From SAR202 cluster bacterium (GTDB lineage Bacteria > Chloroflexota > Dehalococcoidia > Lucifugimonadales > UBA6952), in assembly GCA_009392515.1 (NCBI GenBank), contig VFGE01000025.1, forward strand, positions 1 to 57,351: a stretch of DNA of 57,351 nucleotides. Direction: 5' to 3'. The position numbers and the translations under genes were made by a program. A model generated the notes under the pieces. That model was not told where the DNA came from, did no database searches, and saw only the letters and a list, made by a program, of their open reading frames with translations. This document shows, in pieces, positions 14,061 to 24,486 of the stretch. Position 1 is the first letter of the stretch. Every line of letters starts with the position of its first letter.

Positions 14061-14086
14061 TTTCATAAATTGAGAGGAGTAATGAT

Positions 14087-14830
14087 ATGGCTTTGGATAT
14101 TAAAGTCTATGCAAGAAAAGGCTGAGCGACTTGTGCCCGAACGAAAGAGTTTCTTTCAAAAAATGGATTTGCATATATAGAGCGAGATATACAAAATGAC
14201 CAGGGAGCTCTACAAGAGTTGCGAGATTTAGGTTTTAGGGCCGTTCCCGTTACTGTAGTTGGAGAAACTGTAATAAACGGATTTAATCCAAGGCAATTAT
14301 CAGAAGCATTGACTATTAATGTCGATATTGAAGCAAGAACTCCAAAAGAAACTTTGGCAATTCTTGAAAAAACTTTAGCCTCAGTTGAAAAAAATCTTCG
14401 ATTAATGCCAGATGATAAATTAGACTGGACAGCCCCAGATCGTGATAGACCAATGCGTGAATTTGGATATCATATGTTTATGTTTACTGAAATCACTATG
14501 ATTGGATTAGATTCTGGGAATTATCCACCTCGTTCAGATCTTACGGGTAGATCATATAATTCATTTAATGATATAGCCGACTATGGTAAAGGGGTGCTCG
14601 AAGGATTTAAATCAAAAGTTTCAGAATTAGACTTGGACAAATTAGCTCAAATTGGCCCACGTGGGGAAGATGATAGAAGTGTATCTGAAAGGCTTGATTT
14701 GGTTGCTGGGCATACAGTTCAACACCTGAGGCAATTGTATTTTGTATTAAGAGAATTTGGTATAGAACCTATTGATCCTATCGAAGATTCAGAATTTCCA
14801 ACCGAGTATGTTCTAACAATTCTTTGGTAG
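14087..14830 (+). CDS. selenocysteine glutaredoxin-DinB fusion protein (in-frame TGA = Sec13)
   Basis: Read through the TGA at 14123-14125, the gene encodes 247 residues. Residues 1-80 are a glutaredoxin fold (MALDIKVYARKG-U-ATC-ARTKEFLSKNG, then FRAVPVTVVGE with the cis-Pro loop, then INGFNPRQL). The TGA stands for the first residue of the redox motif, giving UxxC. From about residue 85 a DinB-superfamily four-helix bundle carries the metal triad His129, His209 and His213 (HxxxH). DinB proteins include bacillithiol and mycothiol S-transferases, so this may couple a low-molecular-weight thiol with a selenol redox centre; that is inference. A strong SD (GAGGAG) precedes ATG 14087. Starting after the TGA would lose the active site. 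Confidence 0.88.
14123..14157 (+). promoter_or_regulatory. bacterial SECIS element (UGA plus hairpin) in the glutaredoxin-DinB gene
   Basis: TGA at 14123-14125 is followed by stem GAAAGA (14143-14148), loop GTT (14149-14151) and stem TCTTTC (14152-14157). This is a perfect 6-bp hairpin with a three-base loop starting in G, 23 bases from the TGA to the loop. Bacterial SECIS elements bound by SelB have a short stem, a small loop with a G in its first two bases, and lie about 16-37 bases after the UGA. All three conditions are met. Confidence 0.8.
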
Positions 14831-23664: not shown

Positions 23665-24486
23665 ATGAGTGAAAATTATTATAAACCTGAAATGTTGGCT
23701 GATACTGATTGGTTATTAGAAAATTTGGACAAGCCGAATATCAGAATTGTCGATTGTGATCCTCCAGATTCATTTTTTAGAGCGCATATACCAAATAGTG
23801 TTAACATTGGTAGCAATACTTTTGTTAAAAGTGCCAATTCTTCCCTTCATGTTATGGATGCTGAAGAGATAGAAGAATTTATGAGTAATTTAGGAATTAG
23901 TAGTGATACTACAGTCATTTGTTATGATGGTAGAAACTCACTAACAGCCACAAGATTTTGGTGGGTACTTAATTATTATGGGCATACAAATGCAAAAGTG
24001 TTAAATGGCGGGTGGATTAAATGGATTAGTGAAAGTAAACCCGTTTCTATAGTTCCTACTAAAGTTGATAAAACTAAATTTGTCGCAGAAAAAGATGATT
24101 CATTAATTGCGGATCATAACCGTGTTTTAGCAGCAATAAATAGTGATAGTGATATCATTTGGGACGCACGGACTATTGAAGAATATAATGGGCAAAATTC
24201 CAGAGGTAATAAAAATACTGGGCATGTACCCTCTTGTGTATATACGGAATGGATAGATTTAATAGATTCTAATAATATGTCATGTTTTAAATCGCCTTCG
24301 GATTTGGAAAAAATATTTGAATCACTTGGAGTTTCTAGAGAAAAACAGGTATTTACTTACTGACAGGGAGGTATACGTGCGGCGCACGTACTGTTTACAT
24401 TAAAGTTAATGGGATTTGAAAAAGTTTCAAATTACGATGGTTCTATGGGTGAATGGGCTAATATGGAAGGCATGCCATTAGAATAA
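23665..24486 (+). CDS. selenocysteine tandem-rhodanese sulfurtransferase (in-frame TGA = Sec233)
   Basis: Read through TGA 24361-24363, this is a 273-residue two-domain thiosulfate/3-mercaptopyruvate sulfurtransferase. The first rhodanese domain (about 10-135) has HIPNSVNIG and VICYDGRNSLTATRFWW with no catalytic Cys, as is normal for the structural domain. The second has IIWDARTIEEYNG, TGHVPSCVYTEW and the active loop VFTY-U-QGGIRAAHVLF, where the family has Cys. It continues VSNYDGSMGEWANMEGMP. It thus carries sulfane sulfur on a selenol. GGGGAG precedes the ATG. Read as a normal stop, the gene would lack the nucleophile and the last 41 residues. Confidence 0.9.
24361..24390 (+). promoter_or_regulatory. 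bacterial SECIS element (UGA plus hairpin) in the rhodanese gene
   Basis: TGA at 24361-24363 is followed by stem TACGTGC (24374-24380), loop GGC (24381-24383) and stem GCACGTA (24384-24390). This is a perfect 7-bp hairpin with a three-base loop beginning GG. The loop begins 17 bases after the TGA. CAG (24364-24366) and CTG (24391-24393) could extend the base of the stem. It fits the bacterial SECIS form, and it is G+C-rich compared with its surroundings. Confidence 0.85.

Follow-up and report, generated by a model that had tools for sequence, protein, structure and literature searches.

A glutaredoxin-DinB gene with an in-frame TGA

The window (the whole 57,351-nt stretch of DNA that we analysed) carries, at positions 14087..14830 of the forward strand, a gene that encodes a 247-aa glutaredoxin-DinB fusion when its one internal TGA is read as selenocysteine (Sec). 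This assignment rests on the translation, on scores over cut-off for Pfam PF00462 and PF12867, and on homologues. Read directly, a Shine-Dalgarno sequence, GAGGAG, lies at 14074..14079 on the forward strand, 7 nt upstream of the ATG at 14087. From there to the TAG at 14828-14830, the frame is open except for the TGA at 14123..14125 (forward strand). This codon, within the context KG-U-ATC-ARTKEFL, takes the first Cys position of the glutaredoxin CxxC, making UxxC with Sec as residue 13. The mechanical ORF caller reports only the part of the locus that begins at TTG 14219. In the window as a whole, 26 TGAs precede an in-frame stretch of 100 or more open codons.

An earlier note, made from the letters and their open reading frames, had claimed that this TGA interrupts a frame from 14087 to 14830 behind a strong Shine-Dalgarno sequence and ATG, that it holds the first CxxC position in the context given above, and that annotation would leave a truncated ORF from TTG 14219. 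All three claims held, the last in exactly the form that the mechanical ORF caller yields. Its reading required one refinement: the truncated product, which it called DinB-like, contains a genuine second domain whose His triad is intact, so that the protein is a glutaredoxin-DinB fusion and not a plain Sec-glutaredoxin.

Conservation of the TGA among homologues

We searched 250 genomes from the order and 400 from the phylum for homologues, and combined the results with loci from other searches. Sixty-five distinct Chloroflexota sequences cover the site, and TGA is found at the same codon in every one (65/65). These sequences come from many genera and are 21-62% identical to the window protein; they are related and do not represent 65 independent events. 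Full-length proteins from three groundwater Chloroflexi genomes share 57-61% identity with the window protein, and their genes have TGA at this codon. A paralogue in the same genome (L026, G000:C38:8963-9739), ~32% identical and counted among the 65, has the same TGA and its own hairpin, and is also carried by the one congeneric genome.

Cys occupies residue 13 in three plasmid-borne Pseudomonadota homologues, from Roseomonas, Variovorax and Caballeronia, which align end to end with the window protein. Residue 13 is thus Sec or Cys across the homologues and nothing else, as is expected of a selenoprotein whose TGA stands where homologues have Cys. Among the listed matches in the Chloroflexota genomes searched, we found no fused gene with Cys, and we found no relatives on viral contigs. 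One apparently TGA-free copy (G595:C219) was rejected, as the contig end cuts it off before the site. Separately, a short UxxC relative (L036, G285:C6; IRPGULQCKRTKEFLSSKG) has a frame that reaches a TAG stop without entering a DinB domain, and is a stand-alone or truncated form.

A conserved hairpin follows the TGA

A SECIS-type hairpin lies at 14142..14158 on the forward strand. Its perfect stem, GAAAGA/TCTTTC, and the enclosed loop GTT together occupy 14143-14157, exactly the 6-bp hairpin that the earlier note described; an additional closing pair at 14142/14158 is C-G in relatives and C-A in the window gene. The stem begins 17 nt after the TGA and the loop 23 nt after it, such that the spacing of 23 bases given in that note is true of the loop only. 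In bacterial SECIS elements, the apical loop by consensus opens with a G. The window gene thus fits what is expected of a SECIS, a stem-loop just 3′ of the UGA whose apical loop starts with G.

By itself, this hairpin is weak evidence, because a perfect stem of at least 6 bp follows 5.5% of all TGAs in the window. Its predicted fold, short and A/U-rich, reaches -4.5 kcal/mol, which also counts against it. Since the hairpin is unremarkable in one sequence, the argument must be comparative.

Within the window gene's subfamily of 22 sequences, the codons that form the stem are nearly invariant: Thr19 is ACG in 22/22, Lys20 AAA in 20/22, Leu23 CTT in 22/22 and Ser24 TCG in 21/22. For most other conserved residues with a codon choice in these sequences, several codons are used. 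This freezing of synonymous sites holds across loci of 35-72% G+C. Moreover, 97.4% of stem cells are paired, compared with 43-69% in controls in which the partner was slid, two genomes show a compensatory change from A-U to C-G, and RNAalifold recovers the same helix unprompted. In subfamily B, the hairpin is longer and shifted, with compensatory changes: both sides have changed in 23 cells, against a shuffled mean of 11.7, and the covariation exceeds all 500 shuffles. Subfamily B hairpins are less uniform, however (82.9% of cells paired), and RNAalifold favours another fold there, which counts against the selenoprotein reading. In the three Cys homologues, the TKEFL peptide is preserved, but its codons differ and the hairpin is gone.

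The signals that rise above chance, as the comparison shows, are therefore the universally shared TGA and the wobble bases of the hairpin, frozen across genomes of very different G+C. From the codons and the pairing together, the hairpin is very likely an RNA element and not just coding sequence. On the combined homologue and hairpin evidence, recoding of the UGA is the only reading that we consider viable, and we regard it as very probably correct.

The host genome encodes selenocysteine machinery

The host genome (1.55 Mb in 62 contigs, 98% complete) contains the components expected of a selenoprotein host, namely SelA, SelB, SelD and tRNA-Sec. The genes selA (515 bits), selB (338 bits) and selD (354 bits; L020, G000:C37) score over their curated cut-offs, and a tRNA-Sec with anticodon TCA scores 61 bits, over its gathering score. 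The selD gene itself encodes a selenoprotein: its TGA falls within the catalytic site HCAGUAAK and is followed by a hairpin with a fold of -14.6 kcal/mol. Across genomes, selA is over cut-off in 51 of the 57 that carry the fusion, and the other six are only 56-87% complete. It is also present in 18 of 22 control genomes of the order that lack the fusion. Because most fusion-less genomes also have selA, its co-occurrence with the fusion does not discriminate within the order.

The earlier note had read this gene as a genuine selenoprotein and had proposed looking for Cys at residue 13 in homologues, for a SECIS in the hairpin, and for selA, selB, selC and selD in the genome. Every proposed check that was run came out in favour: residue 13 is Sec or Cys only, with Cys in three Pseudomonadota; the hairpin is conserved, with compensatory change and frozen wobble sites; and selA, selB, selD and tRNA-Sec are all present. 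The reading is thus supported, in the absence of selenium data.

Domain structure of the fusion protein

The N-terminal domain (residues 1-76; 14087..14314, forward strand) is glutaredoxin/NrdH-like, with a score of 47.8 bits for the Pfam glutaredoxin family PF00462 (cut-off 22.9) and PDB matches to 7c10, 3zit and 1h75. Among NCBIfam models, those for YruB and NrdH-type redoxins give the best scores, which remain under their cut-offs. The C-terminal domain (residues ~83-233; 14333..14785, forward strand) is a DinB/S-transferase-like four-helix domain carrying His129, His209 and His213, with a score of 27.7 bits for DinB_2, PF12867 (cut-off 24.8), and PDB matches to 3di5, 6iz2, 2nsg and 8f5v. 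Both Pfam domains were found in 10/10 divergent members tested, with DinB at E ≤ 0.01.

An AlphaFold2 model built from a 52-sequence alignment has a mean pLDDT of 93 and a pTM of 0.90. Residues 1-78 of this model match glutaredoxins and NrdH (7c10, Z 14.1, rmsd 1.2; 1h75, Z 13.0). Residues 83-233 align with proteins of the DinB type (3di5, Z 14.6, rmsd 2.8); the matches to mycothiol-dependent maleylpyruvate isomerase (2nsg/2nsf, Z 12.4) and mycothiol S-transferase (8f5v, Z 11.5) score lower. Structure comparison can give helical bundles high scores by chance, so the DinB assignment rests also on Pfam and on the His pattern. Whole-chain matches to glutathione transferases were rejected as homology, given their poor superposition (rmsd 12-16 Å).

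In the 52- and 10-sequence alignments, the invariant residues are G12, U/C13, C16, P54 (the cis-Pro position), H129, H209 and H213. The protein thereby meets the requirements for a glutaredoxin (domain score, CxxC/UxxC and cis-Pro at residue 54) and for a DinB superfamily member (a four-helix domain over cut-off and three conserved His). Given the Pfam scores, the His pattern and the confident structural model, it is very likely that a glutaredoxin/NrdH-type domain is fused to a real DinB domain. Likewise, comparison strongly supports the conclusion that the gene encodes a true selenoprotein with these two domains, its UGA decoded as Sec at residue 13, though no experiment shows selenium in the protein.

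Relation to known selenoproteins and DinB proteins

Sec-glutaredoxins are already known: they are listed in PMC13188914 and PMC1088965, and those of Clostridium (Grx1) and of the Sargasso Sea (Grx) share the UxxC active site and the glutaredoxin fold with the window protein. The solved structure nearest to it in sequence is 7c10, 'Dithiol cGrx1' (39% identity), which we take to be Clostridium oremlandii Grx1, natively a selenoprotein. Compared with these, the window protein adds a C-terminal DinB domain, forms its own Chloroflexota family and is YruB/NrdH-like by NCBIfam. We cannot rule out that some of the Sargasso Sea 'Grx' selenoproteins are fragments of this fusion. The UXX-star families (NF041212, NF041114 and NF041211) also share a small glutaredoxin-like Sec domain, and NF041212 aligns over residues 5-67. 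However, the window protein misses all of their curated cut-offs (43.3 versus 66 bits for NF041212, the others far below), and in the review table these families carry other motifs and no DinB domain (PMC13188914).

On the DinB side, the four-helix fold and three conserved His are shared with the DinB/S-transferase-like superfamily (BstA-H, mycothiol S-transferase, the EgtB N-terminal domain and mycothiol-dependent maleylpyruvate isomerase), of which multidomain members occur. The window protein differs in having a Sec redoxin attached to its DinB domain; there are no data on its co-substrate or activity. Its closest counterparts in architecture are the plasmid-encoded Cys proteins described above (e.g. 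WP_207446294.1, annotated 'DinB family protein'), which have the same two domains end to end, the CxxC, the cis-Pro position and the His triad, but Cys in place of Sec, no SECIS-type hairpin and only 24-27% identity to the window protein.

The fusion is absent from a 2026 review table of 119 prokaryotic selenoprotein families (PMC13188914), and the full-text literature that we searched held nothing relevant on DinB together with selenoproteins or selenocysteine, though we cannot exclude a mention in the 2025 selenoprotein-neighbourhood paper of Haft and Tolstoy. Within this literature, what is likely to be new is the architecture. A well-supported selenoprotein architecture, common in one Chloroflexota order, is thus missing from that inventory, and it places Sec beside a domain whose superfamily is otherwise described with sulfur thiols. 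Gene callers that stop at the TGA lose the redox half and, in every one of nearly 60 genomes, are left with only a 'DinB' fragment. The existence of Sec and Cys forms, as well as of paralogues within one genome, makes this family well suited to studying why selenium is retained in these bacteria.

Proposed function

In B. subtilis, eight proteins of the DinB type act as metal-dependent thiol transferases and carry a His triad of this kind; no residue other than the three His is completely conserved among them, and activity is lost with EDTA (PMC5815605). We infer that H129, H209 and H213 probably hold a divalent metal, without binding data for this protein. In the mechanism that we propose, SelB, tRNA-Sec and the hairpin just 3′ of the UGA would decode it as Sec13 to yield a UxxC active site of glutaredoxin/NrdH type, and the protein would most likely be a redox enzyme. 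The metal domain would bind or activate a thiol or electrophilic substrate, and the U-x-x-C selenol/thiol pair would reduce the resulting mixed disulfide or adduct before being re-reduced, probably via the thioredoxin system. A thioredoxin reductase is encoded in the genome (419 bits), and we infer that this system is the probable reductant.

These claims differ in strength. The selenoprotein and domain claims, taken jointly, are very likely to be right. The specific sequence of metal-activated substrate, U-x-x-C reduction and thioredoxin recycling may as easily prove wrong as right, with the metal binding, reaction, substrate and reductant all inferred. The explanation as a whole, with its functional part loosely worded, falls between the two and is likely. 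That the protein works as a Sec redoxin coupled to a metal-dependent thiol-transferase-like domain is itself an inference, as neither glutathione-dependent exchange nor thiol transferase activity has been assayed, and likeness to the DinB fold does not settle which reaction is catalysed.

Genomic context offers little guidance. The gene neighbourhoods revealed no conserved operon pointing to one substrate, and the window gene stands alone. Subfamily B genes (L095-L124) often have a gene for a GMC-type oxidoreductase nearby, a protein cluster common to 17 loci, and the paralogue sits downstream of ABC-type permease genes; both names come from reading the sequences and not from a family scan. 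BshC, which is needed for bacillithiol and is the only low-molecular-weight thiol pathway gene that we looked for, is absent from the genome.

Alternative explanations

The alternative that survives best accepts Sec decoding but casts the selenol as a built-in thiol cofactor for the DinB metal site, giving a cofactor-free S-transferase or isomerase in place of an oxidoreductase with a substrate-binding module. Several observations favour it: the DinB superfamily takes low-molecular-weight thiols as co-substrates (PMC5815605), the nearest folds include mycothiol-dependent maleylpyruvate isomerase (2nsg/2nsf), BshC is absent (other thiol pathways lie outside that test), and a thioredoxin fold followed by a helical domain resembles the layout of glutathione transferases. 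Against it, no distance or assay data stand behind the idea, the glutathione transferase matches fit badly when whole chains are superposed (rmsd 12-16 Å), and the invariant resolving Cys16 fits disulfide chemistry better. We consider it unlikely. If true, this bolder reading would describe a lineage-wide selenoenzyme family in which a Sec redoxin feeds its selenol straight to a fused DinB metal site. Such a self-sufficient thiol transferase/isomerase, without a small thiol cofactor, would be a bacterial analogue of glutathione transferases made from unrelated helical parts.

A second alternative holds that the TGA is a real stop, arising from a pseudogene or a sequencing error, and that the cell makes just the DinB part, starting at TTG 14219. 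The output of the mechanical ORF caller is exactly this ORF. The comparison contradicts this view, however: the same TGA recurs in 65/65 homologues from many genera with the frame and active-site residues otherwise kept, the codons upstream of the TGA are also under protein-level constraint, and translation from the TTG would begin inside the glutaredoxin fold. We regard a real stop as very unlikely.

Finally, a reassigned code in which TGA specifies a standard amino acid, like codes 4 or 25, though compatible with a conserved in-frame TGA, is all but excluded, since TGA terminates 6 of the 43 window ORFs of at least 200 aa by a mechanical count, tRNA-Sec (anticodon TCA), SelA, SelB and a Sec-type SelD are all present, and the in-frame TGAs found (in the glutaredoxin-DinB gene, in selD and in a rhodanese gene at 24361) sit at Cys catalytic positions with hairpins.

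Other probable selenoproteins

This rhodanese gene (23665-24486, forward strand) encodes a second selenoprotein of the window, judging from its TGA position, hairpin and homologues. The product is a two-domain rhodanese/thiosulfate sulfurtransferase whose catalytic site contains Sec: the TGA at 24361-24363 falls within TYUQGGIRA and is followed by a 7-bp hairpin, TACGTGC-GGC-GCACGTA. Many of its homologues in the order also have the TGA, often with a conserved hairpin; one Cys homologue that we checked (L147) has TGC and no such hairpin.

Many further small glutaredoxin-like domains across Chloroflexota also carry TGA at the first CxxC position (L037, L041, L042, L045, L047, L049, L053, L055, L056 and L059, among others), suggesting that Sec redoxins are likely to be frequent in this phylum.
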